Virus record (IMG/VR): IMGVR_UViG_3300044533_000683 | Span: 1-44,297 of that record | Direction: 5' to 3' (one strand) | Length of the DNA stretch: 44,297 nt | DNA from: a virus | Shown: positions 11,989 through 44,297 of the stretch, piece after piece | Layout: every line of letters starts with the position of its first letter | How positions within the stretch are numbered: the stretch's first letter is position 1 | The notes under the pieces: model-generated | Database searches by the model: none | Seen by the model: the letters and a program-made list of their open reading frames with translations, nothing else | What the model was told of the DNA's origin: nothing | Made by a program: the position numbers and the translations under genes

Positions 11989-12150
11989 ATGAATAATGAA
12001 ATACTTGAAGCGACAATAACGCAGCTTTGGAAAGATGCTCTTGCTTTGCAACGTGTGCCAGAAACTCAATTTAACGCCTCGCAAACTCGTGATGTGATTG
12101 TGGCAAGAAATGCGTTAAATAACATTTTAGAAAGGATTGAAAAATTATGA
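11989..12150 (+). CDS. Small helical protein, first gene of recombination operon
   Basis: 53 residues, helical throughout (ILEATITQLWKDALALQRV; DVIVARNALNNILERI). GGGAG lies 10 nt before the ATG, and the stop overlaps the next start (ATGA), coupling it to the annealase. Function unknown; a helper of the recombinase is possible from position only. Confidence 0.72.
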   Translation: MNNEILEATITQLWKDALALQRVPETQFNASQTRDVIVARNALNNILERIEKL

Positions 12151-12767
12151 AAGATGCAGAAAAAGAATTAATGAAATCGCTTGATGCTGCAAATATAAAA
12201 AGCAGGAGTAAAGGCGGTGCTGATTTGTCTTATTTGGAGAGTTGGTTTGTTATTGCGGAAGCCAATAGAATATTTGGCAATTTAGGCTGGAGTAGAGAAA
12301 CGATTTTGCTTGAGTGTGTTTCAAAAGAAAAAAATCAAAACGGCAATCATATTATTGGATATATTTCAAAAGTTAAAGTTACTGTTGATGGTGTTATTCG
12401 TGAAGGCGTTGGGTTTGGTAGTGGAATTGCTAAGATGGAAGCAGATGCGCATGAAGGGGCCGCAAAAGAAGCGGAAAGCGATGCGGGAAAACGTGCTTTA
12501 ATGACTTTTGGTTATCCTTTAGGGTTGGCTTTGTATGATAAAGACAAAGCCAATGTTAAAGCCCCAGTTTCTGATGCGGAACAAAAAGCGCATGATGTTT
12601 GCATTAAATCCATAAATAAAATTGCAGAGCCTAATCATGTTATTATGGTTATGAACTCGCCGCATTACAAACTTTTGAAAGATGCTCAATCAGAATTATT
12701 GGTTGAAGTTGATGCTAGATTGCAAGCTAAAGAAAACGAATTAAAAACAGGGGGATTAAATGGTTAA
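12147..12767 (+). CDS. Rad52-family single-strand annealing protein
   Basis: Anneals complementary single strands during phage recombination and repair. The 206 residues carry the Rad52/Rad22 core: LSYLESWFVIAEANRIFGNL (27-46) with GWS directly after it, a beta segment of the form YISKVKVTV, and the signature GVGFGSGIAKMEADAHEGAA, then AESDAGKRALMTFG. The C-terminal 60 residues are a variable helical tail, where such proteins often contact SSB. The SSB gene follows with an 8-nt overlap, a typical annealase-SSB pair. Confidence 0.9.
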   Translation: MKDAEKELMKSLDAANIKSRSKGGADLSYLESWFVIAEANRIFGNLGWSRETILLECVSKEKNQNGNHIIGYISKVKVTVDGVIREGVGFGSGIAKMEADAHEGAAKEAESDAGKRALMTFGYPLGLALYDKDKANVKAPVSDAEQKAHDVCIKSINKIAEPNHVIMVMNSPHYKLLKDAQSELLVEVDARLQAKENELKTGGLNG

Positions 12768-13263
12768 TAAAATTATTTTAATTGGGCGTGTTGGTAATGA
12801 CCCAGATATTAAAGCAACGCAAGATGGGCGTGAAATAGCTAATTTTTCTCTTGCAACCAGTGAAAGTTGGAAAGATAAAAGTTCGGGAGAGCGCAAAACG
12901 ATTACTGATTGGCACAAAATAGTTGTTTATAATGAAGGACTTGTTAAAGTCATTAAGCAATATATTAAGAAAGGAAGTCACTTATATATTGAGGGGGCAA
13001 GTAAAACCCGCAAATGGACTGATAAAGACGGGGGGGAAAAATACATTACGGAAGTTGTGCTTCAAAGTTTTGGCGGTAATATAACCATGCTTGATGGCAA
13101 GGGAGATGATGGCAATAAAACAAACACACAAGAAAAAGCAAGCGGTTACGCAAATAAAAAAGCCGACCCAGCGCATCAATCGCCACAGCTTGATGATGAC
13201 ATTCCATTTGCTTGGATATTGCCATTAATTATGAGTTTTGCATCATTGGCAGGAATGGCTTAA
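12760..13263 (+). CDS. ssb: Single-stranded DNA-binding protein with extended C-terminus
   Basis: Coats single-stranded DNA in replication and recombination. Residues 1-110 form a standard OB fold (VNKIILIGRVGNDPDI; ANFSLATSESW; TDWHKIVVYN; GSHLYIEGASKTRKW). A Lys/Asn/Gln-rich linker leads to the acidic tip DDDIPF at 145-150. In most bacterial SSBs this tip is the end of the protein, where partner proteins dock. Here 17 hydrophobic residues (AWILPLIMSFASLAGMA) follow before the stop, which would bury or alter the docking end. The gene overlaps the annealase end. Confidence 0.93.
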   Translation: MVNKIILIGRVGNDPDIKATQDGREIANFSLATSESWKDKSSGERKTITDWHKIVVYNEGLVKVIKQYIKKGSHLYIEGASKTRKWTDKDGGEKYITEVVLQSFGGNITMLDGKGDDGNKTNTQEKASGYANKKADPAHQSPQLDDDIPFAWILPLIMSFASLAGMA

Positions 13264-13755: not shown

Positions 13756-14445
13756 ATGGAAGAAGAACAATCAAAAATAACATTAACCATGGATAAGCAG
13801 CAAATGCTATTCGCTTTGAAAAACTTACGCCTTTTTGTAAGCACAGAAGAAACCCGATATTATCTTTGCGGCGTATATGTTGAATATGATAAAAATGCGG
13901 ACGAATTGATTTTAACCGCAACAGATGGTCATAAATTATGCACCAGCACGTTAAAGCCAATTCAATCGCTTGGCGCAAAAGTTTCACAAAACGCCATTAT
14001 ACCAACCAATATTGTTGATGTTTGCATTAAAGCAATCCAAGAAAGTATTGATGAACTTGACGGACTTAATTTTATTTTTGACAATGAAACATTTGCGCTA
14101 GATTGTTTCGGTCATAAAGTTGAAGGCAGATGCCTTGATGGAACTTATCCTGATTATCGCCGTGCTATTCCAAAGGCTAGTGATGATGATATTGTGGTTG
14201 GTATGAATGACAAGCAATTTTTAGCAGCAGCAAAGGTTTTGAAATCCAATAAGCAACCAATGAAATGGACGTTTTCAGAAGGCGGAAACGTTACAGTTGA
14301 ACCAGTTGATGAAGAAGGCGTAAAAACAAAAATTGTGCTTATGCCTTATCGTGTCAATGGTGAGAACTATAATGAAAAGCGCAAAAAGAACAGCGCACGA
14401 TGCCAAGAAACTCAAGATATGCTTGAAACAGAGGAGGGTATTTGA
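13756..14445 (+). CDS. DnaN-like sliding-clamp protein, two-domain form
   Basis: 229 residues matching the middle and last parts of the bacterial beta clamp: ETRYYLCGVYVEYDKNADEL then ILTATDGHKL (about 33-61), DGTYPDYRRAIP (near 126-137), and a final VLMPYRV, like the clamp's terminal MPMR. The first clamp domain is absent and the last is only about 75 residues, against a normal total near 366. It probably acts as a processivity or polymerase-docking factor, or as a decoy of the host clamp; which is unknown. GAGGAG precedes the ATG. Neighbours are SSB, annealase and a nuclease. Confidence 0.82.
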   Translation: MEEEQSKITLTMDKQQMLFALKNLRLFVSTEETRYYLCGVYVEYDKNADELILTATDGHKLCTSTLKPIQSLGAKVSQNAIIPTNIVDVCIKAIQESIDELDGLNFIFDNETFALDCFGHKVEGRCLDGTYPDYRRAIPKASDDDIVVGMNDKQFLAAAKVLKSNKQPMKWTFSEGGNVTVEPVDEEGVKTKIVLMPYRVNGENYNEKRKKNSARCQETQDMLETEEGI

Positions 14446-14786
14446 TGGTGAATAACATCACCGAAGCGTCATTGCAAAAAGCAGCTATGCAGTGGTTAAA
14501 ACTGCATGGCGTTTTTGCATGGCGTAACAACACTGGAAGCACCAGAACTGCAAGCGGGGGTTATATATCATTTGGCTTGAAAGGCAGTAGCGATATATTG
14601 GCTTTGCATAATGGTGTTGCTTATGCGATTGAGGTTAAAGGGTATAATAAAGCTGGTAAATTAGGCAGGCAATCACCAGAACAAAAAGCGTTTGCGCAAG
14701 ATTGGATTAATGCGGGCGGGGTTTATATTTTACTCACGCCTAATAATTTTAATGATTTAGATATAATATTAAAGGAAAAAACATGA
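14445..14786 (+). CDS. VRR-NUC family nuclease
   Basis: 113 residues with the PD-(D/E)XK fold as found in phage VRR-NUC proteins: N-terminal Glu7 in NNITEASLQKAAMQWLK, Asp50 in LKGSSDILAL, catalytic EVK (63-65), and Gln80 in QSPEQKAFAQDW. Such proteins cut branched or recombining DNA. The ATG at 14445 shares a base with the previous stop (TGATG) and has GAGGAGGG upstream; a TTG one codon earlier is not needed. Position after annealase, SSB and clamp supports a recombination role. Confidence 0.88.
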   Translation: MVNNITEASLQKAAMQWLKLHGVFAWRNNTGSTRTASGGYISFGLKGSSDILALHNGVAYAIEVKGYNKAGKLGRQSPEQKAFAQDWINAGGVYILLTPNNFNDLDIILKEKT

Positions 14787-16118: not shown

Positions 16119-16676
16119 TTACCACCGCCTTAATTCAGGAATAGCACCATCATTTGCTATAAATTGTTCATTGCCAAAATCCCATTTATCAACTTTTGCA
16201 GCACGATATTTTTCTTTTTGGGTTGACGTATTAACCTTAATATCAGGACTAGCACGGTCATAATGCACTTTAGCCACAACTCTTTTACGAGCCGTGCTTA
16301 TTTCGTCATCAACCATTATTGCTAATACATATTCACTGGTTATTTTAGTGATATTATGTTTTGCAATAATATCCTTAACAGATACGCCTTTAACATAATC
16401 AAAGACAATAGATTTTAATTGATTGTTTTGAATGTTTTCTAAACGCTGCAACCCAACGCCTAAGTTTTGATTATTAAGGTCACTTTGGAACAATTCAACT
16501 TCTGCAAATGATTTTGTTATATTTTTACGATTGGCAAAATAGCCGTCAATACTTCCAGTGGATACGCCTGTTTTTTCTGATATTTGCCTAACAGTGTAAC
16601 GTTCAGCACGCAATCTAAAAACTTCTTTTCGTTGCTTCCAAACTCGTATGGCTTCTTTTTCTTTTTTTTCAATCAT
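16119..16676 (-). CDS. Probable transcription regulator with two helix-turn-helix segments
   Basis: 185 residues. Residues 26-48 (RYTVRQISEKTGVSTGSIDG) form a clear helix-turn-helix, and 95-118 (GVSVKDIIAKHNITKITSEY) repeats the pattern. The N-terminus is strongly basic (EKKEKEAIRVWKQRKEVFRL). The C-terminal 60 residues are basic and disordered. It is the last gene of a minus-strand operon read from a strong promoter at 18.16 kb. It could be the regulator that switches to late transcription, an inference from its domain content. Confidence 0.7.
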   Translation of the reverse strand: MIEKKEKEAIRVWKQRKEVFRLRAERYTVRQISEKTGVSTGSIDGYFANRKNITKSFAEVELFQSDLNNQNLGVGLQRLENIQNNQLKSIVFDYVKGVSVKDIIAKHNITKITSEYVLAIMVDDEISTARKRVVAKVHYDRASPDIKVNTSTQKEKYRAAKVDKWDFGNEQFIANDGAIPELRRW

Positions 16677-16864
16677 GGTTTATATCCCCCAATATCTAAC
16701 GTTTTCTCAATTTCTAAATTAATTTGTTTGCATAATTCAATAGCGGCTTCATAACTAACGCAATCAATTCTATGCTTTTTAGGTTCATAAACCGCCCAAT
16801 GCTCATAACCGCTTATATTATCAATATATCGTAATTTAACAACCGCAAATACACTTATAATCAC
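16673..16864 (-). CDS. Hypothetical protein
   Basis: 63 residues with a hydrophobic start (IISVFAVVKLRYIDNI), a YEHWAVYEP centre and a helical C-terminal part. The stop overlaps the start of the regulator (ATGA). It follows a region with two strong hairpins. Not recognised. Confidence 0.62.
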   Translation of the reverse strand: MIISVFAVVKLRYIDNISGYEHWAVYEPKKHRIDCVSYEAAIELCKQINLEIEKTLDIGGYKP

Positions 16865-16890
16865 CCATATTGTTAAAGTTAAATGCGCCA

Positions 16891-16954
16891 GCGGTGGTCA
16901 GTCACCCACCGCCGTCGCACGCAACCACCAGAAAAATGACATAAAACTGGTGGT
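16891..16954. repeat. Two adjacent perfect inverted repeats in an operon gap
   Basis: GCGGTGG (16891-16897) with CCACCGC (16906-16912), and ACCACCAG (16924-16931) with CTGGTGGT (16947-16954). Both lie in the 97-bp untranslated gap between two minus-strand genes. Neither has a T-run on the minus strand, so they look like RNA-processing or stability hairpins, or protein-binding sites, rather than terminators. Confidence 0.7.
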
Positions 16955-16961
16955 ATTCTGT

Positions 16962-17324
16962 TTATTTTACCCACGCTTCATTTATTGCGATTGCTAATTC
17001 TCTAATTGCTTTGCTAAATAAAGGGGCTTTATTCATTCCAGTTTCAACGGGAAATGTTATTCCCTTACCAACCTTGGGATTATAAGCACGTGCTTCCCAG
17101 TAACAATCCTTGTAGTATAAATCAAAAGATAATTTCATTTTGTCACATAGATTTTTGATGCAAGTTAAGTAATCAAATAAATCTTGCAATACCCAAGCAC
17201 CTTCTATTGTATGAGGTAATCCGCAATTTTTCAAAAACTCTATATCAGGCTTTGCACGTTCCCGCATCTCCTGAGTTATTTGAAAATCTACATCTTCGTG
17301 TTCGTAATGTGCGCAATCTATCAT
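16962..17324 (-). CDS. Hypothetical protein
   Basis: 120 residues, Tyr-, Cys- and Trp-rich in the middle (DLFDYLTCIKNLCDKMKLSF; DLYYKDCYWEARAYNPK) with a helical C-terminus (PLFSKAIRELAIAINEAW). A GGAG site precedes the ATG. Its length and order in a small-gene operon are typical of phage accessory proteins. No function recognised. Confidence 0.7.
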   Translation of the reverse strand: MIDCAHYEHEDVDFQITQEMRERAKPDIEFLKNCGLPHTIEGAWVLQDLFDYLTCIKNLCDKMKLSFDLYYKDCYWEARAYNPKVGKGITFPVETGMNKAPLFSKAIRELAIAINEAWVK

Positions 17325-17328
17325 TCTG

Positions 17329-17541
17329 TTATCTCCGCTTATAAGATTTGCTTTCTTGTTTCATAAGCGCAATTTGCTCTGCGTAAAGCCCAGTATTTTT
17401 AGCGTTTTTAATTATTGTATCAATTCTATGCTTGGCTTCTTGCATCTCAATAGCAATGCGATTACGCCTTGCATCTTCTTTCATTCCAGCATATTCAATA
17501 TGCTTGCGAACAATGGTTTTTTGTATATCAGTTAGTTGCAT
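17329..17541 (-). CDS. Hypothetical helical protein
   Basis: 70 residues, charged helices (RKHIEYAGMKEDARRNRIAI; ALMKQESKSYKRR at the end). The start overlaps the previous gene by 14 nt and its stop is 4 nt before the next start. Not recognised. Confidence 0.65.
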   Translation of the reverse strand: MQLTDIQKTIVRKHIEYAGMKEDARRNRIAIEMQEAKHRIDTIIKNAKNTGLYAEQIALMKQESKSYKRR

Positions 17542-17806
17542 TGTCGCCTCCCAGTGCTGCGGTTAGTGCTGCTTTCATAGCGTCAAAACTATGGATATTA
17601 TTACGAAGTTGATTTTGATATTCTGCACTTAATGCAAAAACAATCTCATCGGTGATGGGTATGGGCGCAGTTAATGTATCTATGGCTTTAGCTACTAAAG
17701 CTGATGAATAATAAATAGCAGTATGTAAATCAGATTTACAATGATTACAATCCAACTCCCACTTCTTATATTCCGTTAATATTTCAATCGCTTCCTGCCT
17801 ATCCAT
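17528..17806 (-). CDS. Hypothetical protein
   Basis: 92 residues from the ATG at 17806, which overlaps the preceding stop (TGATG) and has GAGGTGA upstream. A GTG one codon earlier is less likely. N-terminal helix (RQEAIEILTEYKKWELDCNH), then a mixed C-terminal part ending in AALTAALGGDNATN. Small phage proteins of this shape are common; no function assigned. Confidence 0.66.
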   Translation of the reverse strand: MDRQEAIEILTEYKKWELDCNHCKSDLHTAIYYSSALVAKAIDTLTAPIPITDEIVFALSAEYQNQLRNNIHSFDAMKAALTAALGGDNATN

Positions 17807-17982
17807 CACTTCACCTCTATTTTTAATAACGGGATAATTTCATACAAAAAATCTTGCAAACTTTGTTGCGCATCATTGTGAGAAACAAATTGCTCAGCAC
17901 TTTCGCAAATTAATTTTCCATTACTGCTATAAATTGCCCATTTCCATTGTCCGTTGGTTAAATTGTTAAATGCTTTTATCAT
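17806..17982 (-). CDS. Small hypothetical protein
   Basis: 58 residues from the ATG at 17982, chosen for the AGGTGG site upstream; an ATG 7 codons earlier has none. Contains KWAIYSSNGKLICESAEQF then a helix DAQQSLQDFLYEII. It overlaps the ribbon-helix-helix frame by 17 nt. Not recognised. Confidence 0.62.
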   Translation of the reverse strand: MIKAFNNLTNGQWKWAIYSSNGKLICESAEQFVSHNDAQQSLQDFLYEIIPLLKIEVK

Positions 17983-18133
17983 TATCCACCTCATAATACG
18001 CAACTAAAACCTTGGTTATTGCTTGTGACTGTGTGCAGTATTGCACCATTTCTTTTTGCTTTATCATTTCTTGGATTTTACCAAGTAGCTCGTAAGCCTC
18101 TTCTGTTAATATAATATGCACTTTTTTATTCAA
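17966..18133 (-). CDS. Probable ribbon-helix-helix protein with TTG start
   Basis: 55 residues starting at TTG 18133, with GGGGATT just upstream and no ATG option. The pattern is a strand KKVHIILTEE (3-12), helix AYELLGKIQEMI, and second helix SQAITKVLVAYYEV, as in CopG-like regulators. It is the first gene after the strong minus-strand promoter at 18160-18187, a typical place for an autoregulator controlling both divergent promoters. Confidence 0.62.
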   Translation of the reverse strand: MNKKVHIILTEEAYELLGKIQEMIKQKEMVQYCTQSQAITKVLVAYYEVDNDKSI

Positions 18134-18159
18134 TTTAATCCCCTTTGTTGTATGTATCT

Positions 18160-18187
18160 ATTATATAGTAAAAAAATATTAAGTCAA
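18160..18187 (-). promoter_or_regulatory. Strong minus-strand promoter
   Basis: TTGACT (18182-18187) and consensus TATAAT (18160-18165) on the minus strand, 16 bp apart, serving the 18.1-16.1 kb operon. Confidence 0.82.
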
Positions 18188-18200
18188 TACAAAATAACCA

Positions 18201-18229
18201 TTGACATTAATATTAATTGCACATATTAT
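18201..18229 (+). promoter_or_regulatory. Strong plus-strand promoter
   Basis: Consensus TTGACA (18201-18206) and TATTAT (18224-18229), 17 bp apart, driving the 18.3-23.4 kb operon. Its -35 box is only 13 bp from that of the divergent promoter, and the spacer holds the palindrome TTAATATTAA (18207-18216). Confidence 0.82.
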
Positions 18230-18269
18230 CACCTTATCAGCAACGGCTGGTTTAACCAACAGGAGCATT

Positions 18270-18284
18270 CGGGGTAACGCCCCG
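18270..18284 (+). promoter_or_regulatory. Leader hairpin of the small-gene operon
   Basis: CGGGG (18270-18274) and CCCCG (18280-18284) around TAACG form a stable hairpin in the leader, 13 bp before the first ATG. It may protect the 5' end of the mRNA or affect initiation. Confidence 0.5.
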
Positions 18285-18297
18285 TTTGAGAATTGAG

Positions 18298-18459
18298 ATG
18301 GATAGTTTTTATAATCAATTTGCAGCAGTGGTGTTTTTAATGGCAGTGTTTATTTTTACGCTGGTATTGCCAGAAATTAACCACACTAACAGGCTAATTG
18401 CAGGTGATGATGTGGTTAGTTATTATGGATTACCTAAACCAGATATTTATGGAGAATAA
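18298..18459 (+). CDS. Small membrane protein
   Basis: 53 residues with one strong membrane segment (FAAVVFLMAVFIFTLVLP, 8-25), then a polar C-terminal half (AGDDVVSYYGLPKPDIYGE). First gene behind the 18.2 kb promoter, so made early and probably abundantly. Single-pass phage proteins in this position sometimes act on the host envelope; no specific role can be read. Confidence 0.65.
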   Translation: MDSFYNQFAAVVFLMAVFIFTLVLPEINHTNRLIAGDDVVSYYGLPKPDIYGE

Positions 18460-18460
18460 C

Positions 18461-18742
18461 ATGGATTACCAATATGACCCGTTATATACGGAATTAGACA
18501 ACCTTAACGACACTTGCGTTGAGTTTTTCAAACAAGGAATAGCTTTATTAAAACAACGTGGCATTGACCACGCAGAAGATGAGCGTTACAGGGGAGAATT
18601 AGCAGAGCATATTTCTGAATGCATACAATATCCAATGCTTGAGGCTTTAGGCTGCAATCAAGAAAATACGCACGAATATTACGTTGCGGAAAGTTTTTAT
18701 CATAATAACGGCTGGACTGATTTGATGGGGGTGGCTGTATGA
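18461..18742 (+). CDS. Hypothetical protein
   Basis: 93 residues from the ATG at 18461 with GGAG 8 nt upstream; a more distal in-frame ATG would overlap the previous gene. Helical and acidic (LYTELDNLNDTCVEFFKQGI; HAEDERYRGELAEHISECI). Its stop overlaps the next ATG (ATGA). Not recognised. Confidence 0.68.
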   Translation: MDYQYDPLYTELDNLNDTCVEFFKQGIALLKQRGIDHAEDERYRGELAEHISECIQYPMLEALGCNQENTHEYYVAESFYHNNGWTDLMGVAV

Positions 18743-19035
18743 AAGAGAGTGAAATAAAAAACTATAAACGCAAAACACTAGAAGGTAAATCGGCTCTTTT
18801 AAGCGGAGTTTTGCTTTCTCACATAGATAGCATTATAAACAAATCTTTTAATTATGAAACAATAAAAGATATCTTAATTCATGGAATGGATAAAGTTCTT
18901 GAGTTTGATGCAGATGAAATCTCTGTGGTTTTTTATAATGGACATGTATTTAAGATTGATGGTTCAGATAACCGAACATATTTTTGTCACCAAGATGTTT
19001 TTAATCAAAATTGGGAGCTGGTAAAAAATGATTAA
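18739..19035 (+). CDS. Hypothetical protein
   Basis: 98 residues: helical first half (SALLSGVLLSHIDSIINKSF) and a beta second half (DADEISVVFYNGHVFKIDGS). Overlaps both neighbours by a few bases. No family recognised. Confidence 0.66.
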   Translation: MKESEIKNYKRKTLEGKSALLSGVLLSHIDSIINKSFNYETIKDILIHGMDKVLEFDADEISVVFYNGHVFKIDGSDNRTYFCHQDVFNQNWELVKND

Positions 19036-19162
19036 CGAATGCGAAAACGCTATTGACAGCGCAAATGTAACACTTGGATTTTGCGAATTGCTAGATAAGC
19101 AGTTGCTAGAAATGCGGGTTGTTTTTGAGGAATATTTAACGGCAGAATTAGGGAGTGAGTGA
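19028..19162 (+). CDS. Very small helical protein
   Basis: 44 residues, acidic helix (FCELLDKQLLEMRVVFEEYL). The ATG overlaps the end of the previous gene by 8 nt, and its stop shares a base with the next start (TGATG). Coding status rests on this packing. Confidence 0.55.
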   Translation: MINECENAIDSANVTLGFCELLDKQLLEMRVVFEEYLTAELGSE

Positions 19163-19365
19163 TGCGTAAAATAGCAGTGAATATAATTGCACTTTTAGGG
19201 CTTTGGTTAATTTCAAGTGTCGTTGTCATGTTTGCAATATTTGCGGGTGGTGCTTTTATTAAATTGGAATTACCAGCTTGGAGTAGTGTTGATTGGCAGG
19301 ATTTTAGGATTAGCGCATTTATTGCTTTTTTGTATTTATGTCATTCATCAAGAACATGGTGGTGA
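19162..19365 (+). CDS. Small two-segment membrane protein
   Basis: 67 residues with membrane segments IIALLGLWLISSVVVMFAIF (9-28) and FRISAFIAFLYLC (48-60). The ATG at 19162 follows GGGAG and overlaps the previous stop. Probably inner-membrane; role unknown. Confidence 0.62.
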   Translation: MRKIAVNIIALLGLWLISSVVVMFAIFAGGAFIKLELPAWSSVDWQDFRISAFIAFLYLCHSSRTWW

Positions 19366-19366
19366 T

Positions 19367-19474
19367 ATGATTACATTTATTGCGGGAATACTTATAGGGA
19401 TTTTGTTATCTGTTTTTACAATAACTTTAGTATGTAAATTTTACCAAGCGCGAGATGAAGATGATTGGGTATAA
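19367..19474 (+). CDS. Very small membrane protein
   Basis: 35 residues: one membrane segment (FIAGILIGILLSVFTITLVC, 4-23) and a charged tail (YQARDEDDWV). Begins one base after the preceding gene, with GGTGGTG as ribosome site. Short but well packed. Confidence 0.55.
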   Translation: MITFIAGILIGILLSVFTITLVCKFYQARDEDDWV

Positions 19475-19625
19475 ATCTATAACATGCGCTACATTGGTTG
19501 CAGTGGTAGTTGCTGCCATAGCAATTAAAGCGCATGAGAAACCAACCAACCATGTGGTTGATAATTCACACATTGGTGAAATAATAAAGCAACCGAAAAT
19601 AACACATACACATGAGAGAGGATAA
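19455..19625 (+). CDS. Small membrane-anchored, His-rich protein
   Basis: 56 residues: a signal-anchor-like segment (ITCATLVAVVVAAIAI, 9-24), then a polar part with several His (NHVVDNSHIGEIIK; ITHTHERG). Likely exposed to the periplasm. It overlaps the previous frame by 20 nt; GCGAG lies just upstream. Confidence 0.55.
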   Translation: MKMIGYKSITCATLVAVVVAAIAIKAHEKPTNHVVDNSHIGEIIKQPKITHTHERG

Positions 19626-19626
19626 T

Positions 19627-19809
19627 ATGAAAAATGAGATAATGCCAGCTATAATAATAGTAATGCTTATTGCCTGCTTTATGATGATTATTTACTTAAA
19701 TAATCCTTCGCAGCAACAGCAAAATGTTTTAGATTGTGAGTTTCATTATGACGCTAATAAATGGCACACAGGCACAACATGCACAATTAAGCAGGAGCAA
19801 GTAAAATGA
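19627..19809 (+). CDS. Small membrane-anchored protein with paired Cys
   Basis: 60 residues from the ATG at 19627 (GAGAGGA upstream). Membrane segment MPAIIIVMLIACFMMIIYL (6-24), then a Gln-rich linker and a small domain DCEFHYDANKWHTGTTCTI with two Cys that could form a disulfide in the periplasm. Stop overlaps the next ATG. Confidence 0.62.
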   Translation: MKNEIMPAIIIVMLIACFMMIIYLNNPSQQQQNVLDCEFHYDANKWHTGTTCTIKQEQVK

Positions 19810-19970
19810 AAAATCAAAATGAGGCAAGGTCAGAGTTTGAACAAAATTATCCTAGGCATGATTGGAGTTATGGGCAACGAGAGCTTAACTTTAAGAAAGA
19901 AGCAAACGGCGAATACGCAGTAGTTAAAACTAAAAAAGTATGGGATTTTGGCAATCCTGCCAGCAACTAA
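19806..19970 (+). CDS. Small hypothetical protein
   Basis: 54 residues, polar and aromatic (EFEQNYPRHDWSYGQRELNF; VKTKKVWDFGNPASN). Starts on the preceding stop (ATGA). Not recognised. Confidence 0.58.
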   Translation: MKNQNEARSEFEQNYPRHDWSYGQRELNFKKEANGEYAVVKTKKVWDFGNPASN

Positions 19971-20077
19971 ACGATGAACGCATAGCAGCAAAAGACGCTG
20001 AGATAGCGAGGTTGCGAGATGATTTAATGACTATAATTTATGGCGCAACTAAAGCACTGGAGGCAACAAATGACTAA
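19940..20077 (+). CDS. Very small helical protein
   Basis: 45 residues; the helix ERIAAKDAEIARLRDDLMTI looks like a genuine short coiled coil. It overlaps the previous gene by 31 nt and the next by 8 nt, leaving no gap in the operon if real. No good ribosome site is seen, so expression may depend on coupling. Confidence 0.5.
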   Translation: MGFWQSCQQLNDERIAAKDAEIARLRDDLMTIIYGATKALEATND

Positions 20078-20258
20078 CATTGAAAAACAAATTGGCACAA
20101 TAGGTAATTATTACGGTGGGCTTACTGTAAAGATGGAAGATGAAAAATATTATTGGAGCATTGAAAATTATGATGGGCATAACTGGCAAGAAATACCCAA
20201 AAAATTATACCAAGAATTATTAAGATTTGATAAAACTTTGCAAAGGCATAAATTATGA
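20070..20258 (+). CDS. Small hypothetical protein
   Basis: 62 residues from the ATG at 20070 (GGAG 8 nt upstream). Beta/aromatic centre (GGLTVKMEDEKYYWSIENYD) and a basic helical end. Overlaps the next gene by ATGA. Function unknown. Confidence 0.63.
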   Translation: MTNIEKQIGTIGNYYGGLTVKMEDEKYYWSIENYDGHNWQEIPKKLYQELLRFDKTLQRHKL

Positions 20259-20473
20259 ACAACATAGAAAAACTAATCGCCAGCACGAAAATTAACCACG
20301 CTGGAACGGAAGCAACGGAAGCTAAACTAGAAACAATGGCTAAGGTGATTGAAATGTTGGTTGATGCTTTAGAAAATTATGCAGACCCAAACAAACATGA
20401 TTATTTGCATGATTATATGATTGCTGTTAACGCACTTCAACAAGCCCAAGAAATAGCGGGGGTTGTATGTTAG
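20255..20473 (+). CDS. Small helical protein
   Basis: 72 residues: helices ATEAKLETMAKVIEMLVDAL and LHDYMIAVNALQQAQEIAG. Its start and end overlap both neighbours. Not recognised. Confidence 0.65.
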   Translation: MNNIEKLIASTKINHAGTEATEAKLETMAKVIEMLVDALENYADPNKHDYLHDYMIAVNALQQAQEIAGVVC

Positions 20474-20880
20474 TTGCTATAGAGGAAATTGAAGGCGTTA
20501 AGCATACGATTGTTTGGCATTTTGATACTTGCAACACAAAGAAAAATAGTTGCGAAAAATGGAAAAAGTTTCAGCACACTTGGGAATTATTCCTTGAAGA
20601 TTGTTATGGGTTACTACACATTGCAACCGCACTCCCACCTTTTCCAAGTAAGCCAACGGCTGATGATGCGAAGTTGCTTCATTTATACGCAGCGCATGGT
20701 TTAATGGTATGGTGGACTGATAACGATGAAGAAAAACCCATGAATTGTGCTTGGTTAGTTAATCGGGATATGCTTCATTATAATTCAATGGTGGAAGCTA
20801 CAGATTTAATTAAGAGAATAACAATCACCCACGCCCTAGACGAGCAAGGCAACCGAATTGAAATCGCATTGAAGGATTGA
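20467..20880 (+). CDS. Hypothetical protein
   Basis: 137 residues, mixed alpha/beta (EEIEGVKHTIVWHFDTCNTK near the start; FPSKPTADDAKLLHLYAAHG in the middle). The pattern recalls small phage nucleotide- or host-interacting proteins but no motif is decisive. Overlaps the previous gene by 7 nt. Confidence 0.68.
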   Translation: MLVAIEEIEGVKHTIVWHFDTCNTKKNSCEKWKKFQHTWELFLEDCYGLLHIATALPPFPSKPTADDAKLLHLYAAHGLMVWWTDNDEEKPMNCAWLVNRDMLHYNSMVEATDLIKRITITHALDEQGNRIEIALKD

Positions 20881-20883
20881 TTT

Positions 20884-21102
20884 ATGACACAACCACCTAA
20901 AAAATACCGCAGAAAATCTACGGATAAAAGTATATTGAAAGGCGCAATGAGAATAAACGCTTTGTATAATATTGATTTTGATGACTGCCTGAAATATTCA
21001 AAAGCAGTCCTTGAAGCCGATGCGGAGGTGATTGAGGTTTATCTTGATAGGCTTTTAACTAACTTAAAACAATTCAACGCCGAATGGGAGGAGATAAAAT
21101 GA
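20884..21102 (+). CDS. Small hypothetical protein, basic N-terminus
   Basis: 72 residues: a basic start (PPKKYRRKSTDKSILKGAMR) then acidic helices (AVLEADAEVIEVYLDRLLTN). Separated from the previous gene by 3 nt; its stop overlaps the next ATG. The charge split suggests a nucleic-acid or protein adaptor, an inference only. Confidence 0.62.
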   Translation: MTQPPKKYRRKSTDKSILKGAMRINALYNIDFDDCLKYSKAVLEADAEVIEVYLDRLLTNLKQFNAEWEEIK

Positions 21103-21449
21103 TGGTTGATGATTTTATTAATATTGCTTCTAGGTTAGCTTTTAAGCAAAAAATATATGATGAAAATCAAAAAGTCATTATGGAAGCCCAAAGACAACAA
21201 TCTAAATTAAAATTAGAAATTGAAAAAATGCAAGCGCAAACAAAAAAAACTTTATGTTTCAGCGACCATGCTGTTGTTCGTTTGCTTGAACGTAAATATA
21301 AATTACCTATTAATGAGGAAGTTAATTTAGTTTTAAGTAAATTAGGCAATAATTTGCCAGATGGTAGATACCCTATAGGTAATGGTTGCCGTGCAGTGAT
21401 TAGAGAAAATAATATAATAACCATAATAGACGAGAGAAACAATGACTGA
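21099..21449 (+). CDS. Hypothetical protein, coiled coil plus small domain
   Basis: 116 residues from the ATG at 21099 (GGGAGGAG upstream, overlapping the previous stop). Residues 15-50 form a Lys/Gln coiled coil. The rest (CFSDHAVVRLLERKYKLPIN; GNGCRAVIRENNIITIIDER) resembles phage-encoded HicA/RelE-size folds only loosely. No toxin motif can be confirmed. Confidence 0.62.
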   Translation: MMVDDFINIASRLAFKQKIYDENQKVIMEAQRQQSKLKLEIEKMQAQTKKTLCFSDHAVVRLLERKYKLPINEEVNLVLSKLGNNLPDGRYPIGNGCRAVIRENNIITIIDERNND

Positions 21450-21816
21450 ATATTTTTACACAACATTGTTGGTTTGTGCAGCAGCAGCGATTGAGCAGGG
21501 GTTTGAAAAACCGCAAGCATGGACTGGAATGATGACAGGTTGGGCGGAAGGCTTATATGGACGTGAAAATGTAGGTAATAATTATCGTTTCCACAAGACC
21601 CCGCACAATGTGGCGTTGATGAATAAGCAAGAGTTTGATGTAGTTAAGCAAATTGGCAAAACTATTGCTTTTAATAAAGTCGGAATTATTGAATATGACT
21701 TAAATCGTAAATTAATTGTGCGACATAGTGGATTTGATGACCCACATATAGATAATTGGGTGATTAATGAACGCAACAACATACCATTCCCAGTTTGGGA
21801 TAAGGAGGGCGTGTGA
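21442..21816 (+). CDS. Hypothetical protein
   Basis: 124 residues, aromatic and Asn-rich (GFEKPQAWTGMMTGWAEGLY; HKTPHNVALMNKQEFDVVKQ). It overlaps both neighbours. Not recognised; intact frame and ribosome spacing support coding. Confidence 0.66.
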   Translation: MTEYFYTTLLVCAAAAIEQGFEKPQAWTGMMTGWAEGLYGRENVGNNYRFHKTPHNVALMNKQEFDVVKQIGKTIAFNKVGIIEYDLNRKLIVRHSGFDDPHIDNWVINERNNIPFPVWDKEGV

Positions 21817-21998
21817 TTTTAACATTAGATTTTATGGGCAATCACCCTATTCTTACATTTTTTTTAGCAATACTAATTGCTAATTTTATATTAAAAATTT
21901 TACATTTACCATTCAGAGCAATTACGCTTTATAAACATGGCTATCCACCATTACATTGCGATGTTGATGGTGACTTAAAAGAGGAGAAATCAAAATGA
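21813..21998 (+). CDS. Small membrane protein with GTG start
   Basis: 61 residues from the GTG at 21813 (GTGA overlap with the preceding stop; AAGGAGGGC upstream). Membrane segment ILTFFLAILIANFILKILHL (13-32), then a Lys/Asp tail. Unknown role. Confidence 0.6.
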   Translation: MILTLDFMGNHPILTFFLAILIANFILKILHLPFRAITLYKHGYPPLHCDVDGDLKEEKSK

Positions 21999-22126
21999 CA
22001 AACCCAGATTACGAAACCATAGACGCACTTATCATAGAACATTTGGGTGAACCAGATGATGTGTTTGGCAAATACCATTTAGATTGTGGTGAGCTGCAAT
22101 ATTTTATTGCTAAGTGCTTTGAATAA
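21995..22126 (+). CDS. Very small acidic protein
   Basis: 43 residues (DYETIDALIIEHLGEPDDVF; CGELQYFIAKCFE). The ATG overlaps the previous stop and follows GAGGAG. Such acidic mini-proteins can be host-enzyme inhibitors; this is speculation. Confidence 0.58.
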   Translation: MTNPDYETIDALIIEHLGEPDDVFGKYHLDCGELQYFIAKCFE

Positions 22127-22143
22127 TTAACAAGAAAGGAACT

Positions 22144-22482
22144 ATGACCACCCCAGAACTGATAACCGATGAAATTATTGAAAAAGCATGTAGAGGATAT
22201 AATGCAGCACGAGGACTTGACACAAGCCATAAAAAGAAAATTAAAGCAGCAATCCTAGCAATCCAAGACGACATCACCCGCCCAGTTTATAATATTTTAC
22301 AAGGCTGGAAGCAAAACTCCAACGCATACGAATTTGGATTAAAAGCAATTATAGGAGCCAACGAAGGCAGTAAAACTTGCATATATTGCGGATTAGATGA
22401 CAATGAGCATAAATATATATGTCCTGTGCATATTGCTAAATCAGCCTTTAACGGCGAATATCACGAACCGAGAGAGGAATAA
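22144..22482 (+). CDS. Protein with C-terminal zinc-knuckle
   Basis: 112 residues: helical N-terminal two-thirds, then CIYCGLDDNEHKYICPVHI (near 80-98), a Cys-x2-Cys pair with a later Cys and His that can bind zinc. An AAAGGAA site precedes the ATG. Possibly nucleic-acid binding. Confidence 0.68.
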   Translation: MTTPELITDEIIEKACRGYNAARGLDTSHKKKIKAAILAIQDDITRPVYNILQGWKQNSNAYEFGLKAIIGANEGSKTCIYCGLDDNEHKYICPVHIAKSAFNGEYHEPREE

Positions 22483-22487
22483 TAACA

Positions 22488-22937
22488 ATGAAAAACAATG
22501 CTTTTATATTTGATATTGACGGCACGTTATCAGATACTGCACGTCGCCGTCACCATGTTGAAAAATCACCAAAGAACTGGGACGCATTTTTTGCAGACCA
22601 AATAAACGATGATGCGTTGCCAACGGCTGAGATATTGCGTAAATTATTTGACCATACTTCTTATGAAATATTGATTGTGACTGGCAGGCGTGAAGAATAT
22701 AGAGAAGTCACACAACAATGGCTAAACAAACATAGGTTGAATTGCACTAAATTATTTATGCGCCCTGCTAATGATAAGCGTGATGACACAAATATTAAAC
22801 TAGAAATATACAATAATTATATTAAGCTACACTATAATGTTTTAGCGGTTTTTGAAGATAGATTGCGTTTAGTTCGCATGTGGCGTGAACAAGGTTTATT
22901 TGTATTTAATTGCAATCAAACAGACGAGGATTTTTAA
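22488..22937 (+). CDS. HAD-family phosphatase, polynucleotide 3'-phosphatase-like
   Basis: 149 residues with the HAD motifs: FDIDGTLSD (8-16, nucleophile Asp9 and Asp11), IVTGRREEY (motif II Thr, near 64-72), a Lys in the DDTNIKLEI region, and VFEDRLRLV (motif IV). This layout matches the phosphatase part of phage polynucleotide kinase/phosphatase proteins and related small phage HAD enzymes. No kinase P-loop is present. It could repair nicked tRNA or DNA ends or process nucleotides. Confidence 0.82.
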   Translation: MKNNAFIFDIDGTLSDTARRRHHVEKSPKNWDAFFADQINDDALPTAEILRKLFDHTSYEILIVTGRREEYREVTQQWLNKHRLNCTKLFMRPANDKRDDTNIKLEIYNNYIKLHYNVLAVFEDRLRLVRMWREQGLFVFNCNQTDEDF

Positions 22938-22938
22938 C

Positions 22939-23136
22939 ATGCTAATACCACACAATAACACATTAATCACAGTAAGCGAAATTAAGAAAGGCGAGTTCAC
23001 CGCAAGCAACAACGTGGCTGGTGATATAAATAAAACCTATGCACCCACCGCAGAATTAGCGATTGAGGCAATGAAGGAGCATTTTTTAATGGTAGGTAAA
23101 AAAACATCTTGCGCACGCCCGCAAAATGGTTTATAA
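22939..23136 (+). CDS. Small hypothetical protein ending in repeat 1
   Basis: 65 residues from the ATG at 22939. Beta/alpha (ITVSEIKKGEFTASNNVA; PTAELAIEAMKEHFLMV). Its last 17 or so codons lie in the first 67-bp repeat and overlap the promoter there, so the C-terminus (KKTSCARPQNGL) may be a recent replacement. No family recognised. Confidence 0.62.
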   Translation: MLIPHNNTLITVSEIKKGEFTASNNVAGDINKTYAPTAELAIEAMKEHFLMVGKKTSCARPQNGL

Positions 23137-23150
23137 TACACTTGAAAAAG
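23084..23150 (+). repeat. 67-bp perfect direct repeat, copy 1 (promoter-bearing)
   Basis: Identical to 23423-23489. Starts inside the end of one gene and runs through a complete promoter into the leader of the DUF3310-like gene. Confidence 0.93.
23109..23137 (+). promoter_or_regulatory. Promoter, copy 1, for the DUF3310-like gene
   Basis: TTGCGC (23109-23114), 17-bp spacer, consensus TATAAT (23132-23137). Transcription would begin near 23144, about 37 bp before the next ATG. Confidence 0.8.
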
Positions 23151-23180
23151 TAATATTCACAATTATAGGGTTATTTAACC

Positions 23181-23438
23181 ATGCAGGATAACATAAACCA
23201 CCCACCGCATTACACATCTCACCCATCAGGAATTGAGTGCGTAGATATTGCCAAGCATCATTGTTTCTGCATTGGTAATGTGTTCAAATATATATGGCGT
23301 GCAGGATTAAAGGATAGCACAACAGAAATAGAAGATTTGAAAAAAGCTGTGTTTTATTTGAATAAAAGAATAGATGATTTAGAGCGTGAGAAAGAAATAA
23401 TAGGTAATATAATAAGCACTAATTTTAATGGTAGGTAA
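23181..23438 (+). CDS. DUF3310-like protein (phage nucleotide kinase-like small protein)
   Basis: 85 residues with the DUF3310 pattern: NHPPHYTSHPSGIECVDIAK (5-24), the central GNVFKYIWRAGLKDS (32-46), and an acidic helical end EIEDLKKAVFYLNKRIDDLE. The family is widespread in phage accessory regions and often annotated as a nucleotide-kinase-like protein; its function is not settled. No Shine-Dalgarno sequence is obvious. The last residues (NFNGR) are encoded by the start of repeat copy 2. Confidence 0.85.
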   Translation: MQDNINHPPHYTSHPSGIECVDIAKHHCFCIGNVFKYIWRAGLKDSTTEIEDLKKAVFYLNKRIDDLEREKEIIGNIISTNFNGR

Positions 23439-23489
23439 AAAAACATCTTGCGCACGCCCGCAAAATGGTTTATAATACACTTGAAAAAG
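23423..23489 (+). repeat. 67-bp perfect direct repeat, copy 2 (promoter-bearing)
   Basis: Identical to 23084-23150, 339 bp downstream. It overlaps the end of the DUF3310-like gene in a different reading frame from copy 1 and leads into the noncoding RNA. Confidence 0.93.
23448..23476 (+). promoter_or_regulatory. Promoter, copy 2, for the noncoding RNA
   Basis: TTGCGC (23448-23453), 17-bp spacer, consensus TATAAT (23471-23476). Predicted transcription start is near 23483. Confidence 0.82.
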
Positions 23490-23783
23490 ATTGCGAACTG
23501 AAACGGCTTTGTATAGAGTTCAAGTTTTATATTTATATAAACTAGGAACGCAATCGCTAATAGGCTCTATAGGATTACACGGTTGCTGACGTGCCTATAT
23601 CCTGTCTCACGTTGCAGGGTTAATCAAATGCTTCAGTTTGAAATTGGGGCTGATATGCTTAATCAGGCAATTACGCTAACTTTGGAATGCGGTTGCGTTC
23701 GGAATTAAGGATTGAGTTTTCTCGGTCGGTTAGCGTCAAGTATTACTTCCCCGCTTTCGTTACTGATGATTGCGGGGGTTTTT
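23483..23783 (+). ncRNA. Structured noncoding RNA of about 300 nt, family unknown
   Basis: No gene fits this stretch, yet it has its own promoter and terminator. Helices seen: a 7-bp closing stem GATTGCG (23489-23495)/CGCAATC (23549-23555); ATAGGC (23560-23565)/GCCTAT (23593-23598), crossed by AGGAT (23571-23575)/ATCCT (23599-23603), a possible pseudoknot; AATTG (23642-23646)/CAATT (23668-23672) continuing as CTGAT (23650-23654)/ATCAG (23662-23666); an 8-bp stem ACGCTAAC (23673-23680)/GTTAGCGT (23729-23736) holding two hairpins, GAATGC (23685-23690)/GCGTTC (23695-23700) and GATTGAG (23710-23716)/CTCGGTC (23721-23727). The last has G-U pairs that keep pairing, a sign of selection. It ends in a terminator and adjoins a tRNA, a context known for large phage ncRNAs such as GOLLD and ROOL, although this RNA is smaller and not recognised as either. 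Confidence 0.75.
23748..23783 (+). terminator. Rho-independent terminator of the ncRNA
   Basis: CCCCGC (23749-23754) pairs with GCGGGG (23772-23777) around a 17-nt loop, with a T-G pair possible at the base (23748/23778), then TTTTT. The U-tract ends one base before the tRNA. Confidence 0.8.
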
Positions 23784-23860
23784 CAGAGTGTGGGAAAATC
23801 TGGTTAATCTTCTGGCTTTGGAAACTAGCGTTGTAGGTTCAAATCCTACCACTCTGACCA
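23784..23860 (+). tRNA. tRNA, probably Pro (anticodon UGG)
   Basis: 77 nt with encoded CCA. Acceptor CAGAGTG (23784-23790)/CACTCTG, discriminator A and CCA; T-arm GTAGG-TTCAAAT-CCTAC is perfect. The D-loop holds the conserved GG. The best anticodon arm is CTGGC-TTTGGAA-ACTAG, giving anticodon TGG; the pair closing the loop is a C-A mismatch, and the D-stem has only about 3 pairs, so identity is less certain than the gene itself. C at position 1 and A at 73 fit bacterial proline tRNAs. Transcripts reaching it must read through the preceding terminator or begin elsewhere. Confidence 0.83.
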
Positions 23861-23899
23861 TTTATCGCTTTGCCACCATTGGCGACCCGATAATCAGTC

Positions 23900-23916
23900 G
23901 GTTACAAATTGTAACC
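23900..23916. repeat. Inverted repeat between tRNA and lysis block
   Basis: GGTTAC (23900-23905) and GTAACC (23911-23916) around AAATT, at the convergence of the tRNA and the minus-strand lysis operon. It could slow transcription from either side; no T-run of terminator quality follows directly. Confidence 0.5.
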
Positions 23917-23919
23917 TAT

Positions 23920-24096
23920 TCACAAATTATTTTTCTTAAATTGTGCTATAACTATATCTTTTATAGTATGTTGCTTATGGATAAACAATTCAGGAAAATC
24001 TTCTCGTAATTTTGCACGAGCCTTATCTATTTTTTCTATGCCTTGCTTAAGCATATCTATTATCACTTCTTGAATTGTTGGGATTTCATTTGTCAT
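23920..24096 (-). CDS. Small hypothetical protein, last of the late block
   Basis: 58 residues, helical and basic (IQEVIIDMLKQGIEKIDKAR; HKQHTIKDIVIAQFKKNNL). The ATG at 24096 overlaps the end of the outer spanin by 11 nt. Not recognised. Confidence 0.65.
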   Translation of the reverse strand: MTNEIPTIQEVIIDMLKQGIEKIDKARAKLREDFPELFIHKQHTIKDIVIAQFKKNNL

Positions 24097-24277
24097 TACA
24101 AAGCCGCTTCCAAGTTTTATTGTGAATTAGCAGCCCTTCCACCAGTTTGTTACTGATGCACGCTTTGTCGCTCGTTTCAACATATATAGGCGTAGCAATA
24201 AGGCAATAATCATTTGCTTGTCCAGTCGTTGAACAACTCGTTACGCTTAGCATCATCAGACATAGCAGCAACGTCAT
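24086..24277 (-). CDS. Outer-membrane spanin (Rz1-like lipoprotein)
   Basis: 63 residues from the ATG at 24277. TLLLCLMMLSVTSC (2-15) is a lipoprotein signal with lipobox VTSC, so Cys15 would be lipidated and sorted to the outer membrane. The mature part is 49 residues with extra Cys, as in o-spanins. An upstream in-frame ATG (24364) gives a poor signal. It overlaps the inner spanin by 68 nt in another frame, the classic embedded Rz/Rz1 layout. With Rz it fuses the two membranes at lysis. Confidence 0.82.
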   Translation of the reverse strand: MTLLLCLMMLSVTSCSTTGQANDYCLIATPIYVETSDKACISNKLVEGLLIHNKTWKRLCNDK

Positions 24278-24455
24278 TTTGCACTTGTTGCTTTTTTGCA
24301 ACATTATCAATAATTTCTTCATTCTGCTTTGCCTCCGCTTGTTGCTTGCCTTGCGATTTACCACGCATAAAGGCGGTGAATATCGTAAGCATGATTGCGC
24401 TTAATGCTGCAATCCAGCCTAGTATTTCGTTTTTGAGGTTGAATAGATTAATCAT
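24210..24455 (-). CDS. Inner-membrane spanin (Rz-like)
   Basis: 81 residues: an N-terminal membrane anchor (EILGWIAALSAIMLTIFTAF, 10-29), then a Lys/Gln/Glu-rich coiled coil (GKQQAEAKQNEEIIDNVAKK) reaching into the periplasm. Size, topology and overlap with a lipoprotein gene identify it as the i-spanin. A GGGGG-rich element precedes the ATG, which lies just after a 29-residue membrane peptide. Confidence 0.82.
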   Translation of the reverse strand: MINLFNLKNEILGWIAALSAIMLTIFTAFMRGKSQGKQQAEAKQNEEIIDNVAKKQQVQNDVAAMSDDAKRNELFNDWTSK

Positions 24456-24456
24456 C

Positions 24457-24546
24457 TCAGCCCCCTATTTGCTTAAGCATCAATGCAAACAATGCAGTTG
24501 CCGCTAAAGATAACGGAACTAATAAAGCTAAAAAAAACCAAATCAT
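24457..24546 (-). CDS. Mini membrane peptide in the lysis cassette
   Basis: 29 residues, almost all one membrane helix (IWFFLALLVPLSLAATALFA, 2-21) ending in LKQIGG. The ATG overlaps the previous stop (ATGA) and its end abuts the spanin start. It may be a pinholin- or antiholin-type peptide or merely a spacer; very short, so confidence is limited. Confidence 0.5.
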   Translation of the reverse strand: MIWFFLALLVPLSLAATALFALMLKQIGG

Positions 24547-24701
24547 CTCCGCCCCCTGTTCATATCTGCTAAAGTATCAGTTATTATAATATCCAATATA
24601 GGAGTAATTTTATCTTTATAAAATTGTTTTCTTAATTCTTCGGGCAGTTTATCCGCTAATTCACATACTTTTAGAATTAATTCTAACGTGCTTGCATTCA
24701 T
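24543..24701 (-). CDS. Small helical protein between endolysin and spanins
   Basis: 52 residues from the ATG at 24701 (GGAGGAAAT upstream, TAATG overlap with the endolysin stop). Helices ELILKVCELADKLPEELRKQ and ITPILDIIITDTLADMN. No membrane segment. Not recognised. Confidence 0.66.
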   Translation of the reverse strand: MNASTLELILKVCELADKLPEELRKQFYKDKITPILDIIITDTLADMNRGRR

Positions 24702-25492
24702 TATTTCCTCCTCCACAACCAATAACCTAAACCAGTTAGTGCAATTATTGCACATACTGCTAATCCTACACGATAATCAACGTTTTGCAAAAAAGATAAT
24801 GCGGGCGTGATGATTTGCGGGTCGGTTATAATAGTTGCTATGCTGCCCGTTGCAATTACGCCCGCACCAGCAACTGCCCCCTGATTAACTTGAGATGGAG
24901 GCAACGGCTCGCCTAATTCTTGTTGTGCGGTTGGCACTGGCAACGTATGATTTGGTATTGGAATATTATTTGGGTCTGGTTGCAATATTTGATTTTGCAT
25001 TACAAAATCTTGAACCACTTGAACTTTTCGTAAAAATAATGCTTTTTCTCTTTCTCGCCTTGCAGTTAATCCTGCCAATGCAACCTTTTTACCTTTAGCG
25101 TCCGTAACCTTATTCCATTTAGTGAACTCTTTTGCAGCACCATTATAATTTTTATCATTTAATTTTTTAAGTAAAGTTGATTTTTCTAATGCACCAGCAC
25201 CAAGGTTATAAACAAAACTAACCAGTGCATCAAATTGGTTTTGCGTTAATTCCACTTGCGCCAAACGATTAACTGCTAATTCAAACCTAGCAATATCACG
25301 CTCAAATAATATAATTGCATCTTCTACAGTAATTGTATCACCTTTTTGCACTGGTGAACCATCAAACTTGGTAGTGCTGCCATAACCATAAGTCCATTTA
25401 TCTATAAACTGCCCTTGTTTAATTTGATAAGCAACACTTCTAAAATCTTCATCTTTTCTAATGGATAATTTGCCATATTCTGAAGTTTTCAT
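24701..25492 (-). CDS. Endolysin (GH24 lysozyme) with C-terminal membrane segments
   Basis: 263 residues. The first 150 are a phage lysozyme: SIRKDEDFRSVAY (catalytic Glu15), DKWTYGYGST (31-40, Thr34), LTQNQFDALVSFVYNLGAGA, and LAGLTARREREKALFL. The spacing between the Glu and the Asp/Thr pair is longer than in T4 lysozyme. After a Pro-rich linker there are two hydrophobic stretches, GAVAGAGVIATGSIATII and VGLAVCAIIALTGLGYWLW, ending WRRK. So the enzyme is probably membrane-tethered or carries a holin-like module. A GAGGGG site precedes the ATG. Confidence 0.88.
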   Translation of the reverse strand: MKTSEYGKLSIRKDEDFRSVAYQIKQGQFIDKWTYGYGSTTKFDGSPVQKGDTITVEDAIILFERDIARFELAVNRLAQVELTQNQFDALVSFVYNLGAGALEKSTLLKKLNDKNYNGAAKEFTKWNKVTDAKGKKVALAGLTARREREKALFLRKVQVVQDFVMQNQILQPDPNNIPIPNHTLPVPTAQQELGEPLPPSQVNQGAVAGAGVIATGSIATIITDPQIITPALSFLQNVDYRVGLAVCAIIALTGLGYWLWRRK

Positions 25493-25611
25493 AACCGCCC
25501 CTCTTTTATTTTATCAACAATAAACTGTGCTATATTTTCTATTAACCAGCTAAAACCACAAGCAACGCACCAAATAATAACCATAAAACATATAATTGCT
25601 AATTCGCCCAT
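25489..25611 (-). CDS. Small membrane protein upstream of endolysin
   Basis: 40 residues: a membrane segment (LAIICFMVIIWCVACGFSWL, 4-23) and a short charged tail (DKIKEGRL). The stop overlaps the endolysin start (ATGA). A possible holin component by place and size. Confidence 0.55.
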   Translation of the reverse strand: MGELAIICFMVIIWCVACGFSWLIENIAQFIVDKIKEGRL

Positions 25612-43773: not shown

Positions 43774-44297
43774 TTAAGTTGTTGCGAATTTCATTAGCTT
43801 TAATGCGTCAAAATTAACGACATCTCCGCCAGTGTATTTGGTTGTGTAAAACTTAACAAATGGCTTATCAGTAAATGGGTCACGCAATACACGGAAGCCA
43901 CGACCATCAACAATTTGATAAGCAGTGCGGAAATTACCAAACGCAAGTGAAAAACTATTTCCAGCCAAATCAGGCATATCTTCCATAGTAACAATATTAT
44001 AACCACCAAGATTAAAACCTGTTGCGCCTTGAGTGACATTTAAGTCAACAAGGTAACGTCCGTCCGCATCTTTACGAGTGCGGAAAAACTTTTCAACTTG
44101 ACGATTCATTGCAAAAATTGCACCTGCACGATAAACGGGATTTAATGCAGCAATTATTTCAAAAATTGCGTCCATATCAACCGCCCCAGTAATGCCACTG
44201 ACATCAGGCAATCCACCAGCAGCACCAGAAGGGATATATTGCAACTTACCCCATGCACGACCTGCTTTATCAGTTGTGGTTAATGAAGTTGTGCCAT
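43774..44297 (-). CDS. Major capsid protein, C-terminal part (partial at window end)
   Basis: The last 156 and more codons of the capsid gene that begins at 989: from the duplicated segment to VVNFDALKLMKFATT at the stop (43774-43776). Landmarks ALNPVYRAGAIFAMNRQVEK and LGGYNIVTMEDMPDLAGNSF are typical of HK97 A- and P-domains. A TTG at 44244 is an internal codon, not a start. Confidence 0.95.
   Translation of the reverse strand, partial: GTTSLTTTDKAGRAWGKLQYIPSGAAGGLPDVSGITGAVDMDAIFEIIAALNPVYRAGAIFAMNRQVEKFFRTRKDADGRYLVDLNVTQGATGFNLGGYNIVTMEDMPDLAGNSFSLAFGNFRTAYQIVDGRGFRVLRDPFTDKPFVKFYTTKYTGGDVVNFDALKLMKFATT
44111..44297. repeat. Assembly overlap marking a circular sequence (copy 2)
   Basis: Second copy of bases 1-187, one silent mismatch (G at 44170). 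Confidence 0.93.

Follow-up and report, generated by a model that had tools for sequence, protein, structure and literature searches.

Probable recent duplication of a 67-bp promoter-like cassette next to a DUF3310 gene and a predicted structured RNA in a 44-kb phage genome

The 67-bp direct repeat of this phage is a real, recent and ordinary duplication of a regulatory element. Copy 2 is probably the native promoter of a structured non-coding RNA (ncRNA) and copy 1 a recent duplicate of it, made by short-homology or template-switch recombination; on the same reading, loss of the DUF3310 gene between the copies is possible at background frequency, with nothing that points to a regulated switch.

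The window (the whole stretch of DNA analysed, 44,297 nucleotides, record IMGVR_UViG_3300044533_000683) is a metagenome contig that closes into a circle and comes from a mixed population. Its ends, 1–187 and 44111–44297, form a 187-bp repeat with one mismatch (99% identical). The closest large terminases belong to phages that include Pantoea phage AH07 and Klebsiella prophages (genomes 18–59 kb).

Two other contigs carry the cassette. IMGVR_UViG_3300042940_001225 is identical to the window over 16597–24013 and falls to 93–96% identity near its other end. Relative L129 (IMGVR_UViG_3300042894_002964; its genome is G001) was found through the small ORF upstream of the DUF3310 gene. It matches the window in blocks at roughly 77–97% identity and is about 10% diverged. 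When the cassette was sought in other viral contigs, matches were obtained only in these two. Relatives of the terminase, HAD-phosphatase and DUF3310 proteins yielded no further copy of the locus beyond the near-identical contig. In the lysozyme relative L145, matches to the cassette, ncRNA and tRNA were all absent. Searches of phage and plasmid records turned up DUF3310, tRNA and lysozyme matches and a single short unannotated one, and nothing else.

The features of the locus, with the putative recombination genes, are as follows.

12147–12764, plus strand: Rad52/22-family single-strand annealing protein; SSB gene next, at 12760–13260; plausible recombination machinery.
22939–23136, plus strand: small ORF, 65 aa; tail EHLDGESDERNR in L129, replaced here by the cassette-encoded EHFLMVGKKTSCARPQNGL.
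23042–23052, plus strand: 11-bp word CACCCACCGCA; recurs at the DUF3310 start, 23199–23209; recombination joint in L129.
23084–23150, plus strand: copy 1 of the 67-bp cassette, probably the derived copy; −35 TTGCGC 23109–23114, −10 TATAAT 23132–23137; homology to L129 ends exactly at 23084.
23104–23128, minus strand: terminator-like hairpin of copy 1, CATTTTGCG-GGCGTG-CGCAAGATG followed by T7.
23181–23438, plus strand: DUF3310 gene, 85 aa, between the copies; Pfam PF11753, E = 7.8e-13, 48.7 bits versus a cut-off of 24; PHROG 'nucleotide kinase' families.
23423–23489, plus strand: copy 2 of the 67-bp cassette, probably the native ncRNA promoter; −35 23448–23453, −10 23471–23476; at the orthologous position in L129.
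23443–23467, minus strand: terminator-like hairpin of copy 2, same as that of copy 1.
23484–23783, plus strand: predicted structured ncRNA, driven by copy 2 (predicted); intrinsic terminator stem 23748–23778, then a T-run; fold z = −3.3; compensatory changes relative to L129; no Rfam match.
23784–23860, plus strand: tRNA-Pro(TGG), directly after the ncRNA terminator.

The cassette, its predicted promoter and the opposite-strand hairpin

The preliminary description had proposed a perfectly duplicated promoter cassette, and its geometry holds. The copies, at 23084–23150 and 23423–23489, are exactly 67 bp long and 100% identical, start 339 bp apart and each contain TTGCGC-N17-TATAAT. Apart from the 187-bp end repeat, the 44-kb window has no further internal exact direct repeat above 23 bp. 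Each copy overlaps the end of a coding gene in a different frame, as had also been proposed: copy 1 covers the last 53 bp of ORF 22939–23136, the stop of which falls within the −10 box of that copy, and the final 16 bp of the DUF3310 gene fall in copy 2.

The promoter reading is strengthened by L129, in which the TATAATACACTTGAAAAAG block is the same and the −35 hexamer is better (TTGTCA). In the window the −10 hexamer matches the consensus at 6/6 positions and the weak −35 hexamer at 3/6, for which reason a simple promoter scan missed both sites. In a weight-matrix scan of the whole window the two sites tie at rank 10–12 of 442,660 placements. The hexamers lie within the 16–18 bp spacing of sigma-70 promoters in both phages (TTGCGC-N17-TATAAT here, TTGTCA-N17-TATAAT in L129), and a promoter is predicted. 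Its core is the same across the diverged phages: the CAAAATGGTTTATAATACACTTGAAAAAGATTG stretch is unchanged between the window and L129, while the upstream part of the cassette differs.

Judged from sequence, the ncRNA most likely has its native sigma-70-type promoter in copy 2 and would start at about 23483. From copy 1 a transcript would begin about 36 bp ahead of the DUF3310 ATG and, if this copy fires, DUF3310 transcription would rise. DUF3310 and the ncRNA may plausibly be expressed together. The same strength and timing for both, as had been proposed, is plausible too, but the two copies have different downstream contexts, and transcripts that begin at copy 1 can continue into the ncRNA. 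An operator palindrome, TTGCG-N6-CGCAA, was considered and rejected: it is not kept in L129 (TTGTCAACCCCGCCAA), and its perfect sites in the window are only the two copies.

On the minus strand the cassette reads CATTTTGCG-GGCGTG-CGCAAGATG-TTTTTTT, an intrinsic-terminator-like hairpin of −11.7 kcal/mol that went unnoticed in the preliminary description. The larger genes from 24086 to 44297 are nearly all leftward, so late transcription arriving from that side may be halted at the cassette, the hairpin acting as the putative stop. A two-faced unit could then be envisaged, with a rightward promoter and a leftward terminator that stand as an insulator between the early operon, read rightward, and the late operon, read leftward, duplicated because a tandem terminator/promoter was selected. 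This explanation is possible but rather doubtful. It is favoured by the gene orientation and by the scarcity of such structures: a perfect 9-bp stem followed by T7 occurs at four sites in the window, two of them the cassette copies, against an average of 0.27 in dinucleotide shuffles, and within 21500–25500 the cassette copies are the only terminator-like sites on the minus strand. Against it, the L129 hairpin is far weaker (−5.8 versus −11.7 kcal/mol, with a T-T mismatch and a loop of 10), the hairpin thus appearing not firmly conserved between the two phages, and leftward transcripts would first cross the tRNA and the ncRNA in antisense.

Probable origin of the duplicate copy

One-copy and two-copy relatives could be compared, as had been suggested: two copies are present in IMGVR_UViG_3300042940_001225 and one in L129. 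The single L129 promoter stands directly before the same ncRNA and is about 85% identical to its window orthologue over 52 bp. Alignment of the L129 small ORF to the window extends as far as base 23084, where copy 1 begins, and beyond it the L129 ORF ends in EHLDGESDERNR; that of the window continues into the cassette and acquires the tail EHFLMVGKKTSCARPQNGL. A second small-ORF fragment in L129 comprises 43 bp that are 100% identical to window 23042–23084, followed by a TTAGATGGAGAG tail, and is joined to a 5' remnant of DUF3310 at the common 11-bp word CACCCACCGCA. From this fragment it follows that a window-type gene with another tail existed, and copy 1 is therefore likely to be derived. 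The polarity depends on one informative relative, and copy 1 could alternatively have been lost in the rearrangements of L129 itself.

In the proposed course of events, a 67-bp stretch made up of the DUF3310 gene's final 16 bp and the ncRNA promoter would have been copied, recently and in this lineage only. Inserted at the 3' end of the small ORF upstream, the duplicate would have taken the place of that ORF's tail; the most likely route is recombination by short homology or template switching, aided by the Rad52-type annealing protein. Rad52-like phage recombinases are dominant in exchanges over short or diverged homologies, and the minimum homology of Red-beta is 30 bp (PMC3945230), a length that the 67-bp repeat exceeds. 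Short local duplication appears ordinary in this phage group, since relatives have duplicated too and the window encodes both the Rad52-type protein and SSB. Direct duplications of their own are found in G001 (78 bp at spacing 79 inside the ncRNA; 34 bp at 307) and in G002 (55 bp at 80; 34 bp at 33). The G002 contig (L130, IMGVR_UViG_3300042890_003726) ends exactly at window position 23052, the last base of CACCCACCGCA; this end may be where the assembly of that population forked between rearranged forms.

The locus resembles the mosaic joints attributed to phage Rad52-like and Red recombination (PMC3945230, PMC2327257) in its sharp joints within an accessory region, Rad52-family gene, short homologies and differing rearrangements in relatives. 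It differs in that a regulatory element, not a gene, was copied within one genome, with a putative role for the recombinase. It offers a clear young case of a phage gaining a second promoter by local duplication of a short stretch, for which the joint is defined and a relative with a single copy is available. The regulatory consequences would be modest even if all of the above steps hold.

The preliminary description had ascribed the perfect identity to recent duplication or to ongoing gene conversion. The first part is upheld, the copies being identical while the single L129 orthologue is about 15% different over 52 bp. Ongoing conversion would have the same effect, and copy identity by itself is no proof of youth. 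An ancient duplication held identical by gene conversion or by strong selection on both copies is accordingly hard to separate from a young one on identity alone, and is nevertheless unlikely: L129 lacks the second copy and has a small ORF with an uninterrupted end of its own, and the identity of the two copies extends beyond the promoter elements to the rest of the cassette. For copies that predate the split, at about 10% divergence, 67 identical bases would be expected with p of about 0.001 (0.9^67), barring gene conversion.

Promoter-early stem-loops (PeSLs) of T4-like phages are, as cited in PMC4503421 (Arbiol 2010; Comeau 2014), composite promoter-terminator cassettes that mediate shuffling, and similar motifs are reported in haloarchaeal virus HGTV-1 (PMC3950731). 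The present cassette is similar to PeSLs as outlined there in that a short unit of promoter and stem-loop/terminator recurs within a single genome close to accessory genes and has potential for recombination or shuffling. It has a sigma-70-like promoter and a perfect hairpin, but the hairpin, which overlaps the −35 hexamer, forms on the other strand. The 44-kb phage is not T4-like, and two copies are present here versus the high density in T4-like shuffling regions that the same account gives. With respect to gene shuffling, DUF3310 differs among relatives and the L129 joint lies outside the cassette. Assignment to the PeSLs was rejected on phage group, copy number and hairpin orientation; the cassette may be a promoter/terminator unit comparable to those of T4 and not a member of the class. 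That it is a mobile promoter (plus strand) and terminator (minus strand) cassette outside T4-like phages, its copying co-opting the ncRNA promoter for an accessory gene, insulating that gene from late antisense transcription and marking it for exchange, is a speculation to which little credence is given.

A built-in genetic switch, in which selection would hold recombination between the copies, and with it deletion of the 339-bp DUF3310 unit, at a useful rate, had been suggested in the preliminary description and is very improbable. The geometry permits excision of the gene (67 bp of identity, a 339-bp unit, the entire gene between the copies), an annealing recombinase is encoded by the phage, and in L129 only a 5' remnant of DUF3310 is left. 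The one-copy molecule of this phage was not found among the assemblies: the two near-identical ones are both two-copy, with no form lacking the 339 bp. The one-copy L129 was rearranged otherwise, its DUF3310 having been lost through the CACCCACCGCA joint and not between cassette copies, and exact repeats of at least 12 bp flank DUF3310 in 0 of 35 other loci scanned. Deletability is no evidence of design, because any 67-bp direct repeat combined with an annealing recombinase is deletable; the two copies could recombine and so remove DUF3310 as a background event.

An assembly artefact, which a metagenome-type virus contig with a nearly identical end repeat might raise, is scarcely credible, because IMGVR_UViG_3300042940_001225, a separate assembly in that it differs from the window at the far end (though it may come from the same population), holds the same two copies, common read lengths exceed 67 bp, and the left junction of copy 1 is the very point at which the L129 gene departs.

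The predicted structured RNA and other genes

The ncRNA folds better than its shuffled versions (z = −3.3). Between the window and L129, 48 of the 49 proposed pairs hold in both sequences, with three changed on both sides and five on one; shifting the pair partners destroys the agreement. This is supportive, not proof, of a structure kept through paired changes: two sequences were compared, the structure was drawn knowing both, and 62 of 500 shuffles reach the same agreement. In searches against Rfam the tRNA was the only window match at the gathering score, with nothing near threshold in the ncRNA region or in L129, and the ncRNA motif was not found in the bacterial genomes searched.

GOLLD and ROOL are large phage ncRNAs located beside tRNA genes. 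Like them, the present RNA is a structured RNA of phage origin that lies immediately before a tRNA gene. It differs in size (about 300 nt versus several hundred) and has no Rfam match at the gathering score; membership is not claimed. As an undescribed, apparently structure-conserving phage ncRNA beside tRNA genes it is of more interest than the duplication.

In the alignment the L129 ncRNA has two internal gaps, of about 64 and 26 nt. At L129 4590–4746 the 5' domain of the ncRNA is present as a 78-bp perfect tandem duplication that starts just past the promoter −10. An additional tRNA-Met precedes the tRNA-Pro in L129.

Elsewhere in the window, close to the SSB and Rad52 genes, the gene at 13756–14442 matches PF02767 (DNA polymerase III beta clamp, central domain). 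The protein encoded at 14783–15469 matches the D123 and ATP-grasp R2K families and is unusual for a phage. Two genes upstream of DUF3310, at 22488–22937, a HAD_PNKP protein (HAD-type polynucleotide kinase 3'-phosphatase domain) is encoded by an ORF without the kinase half.
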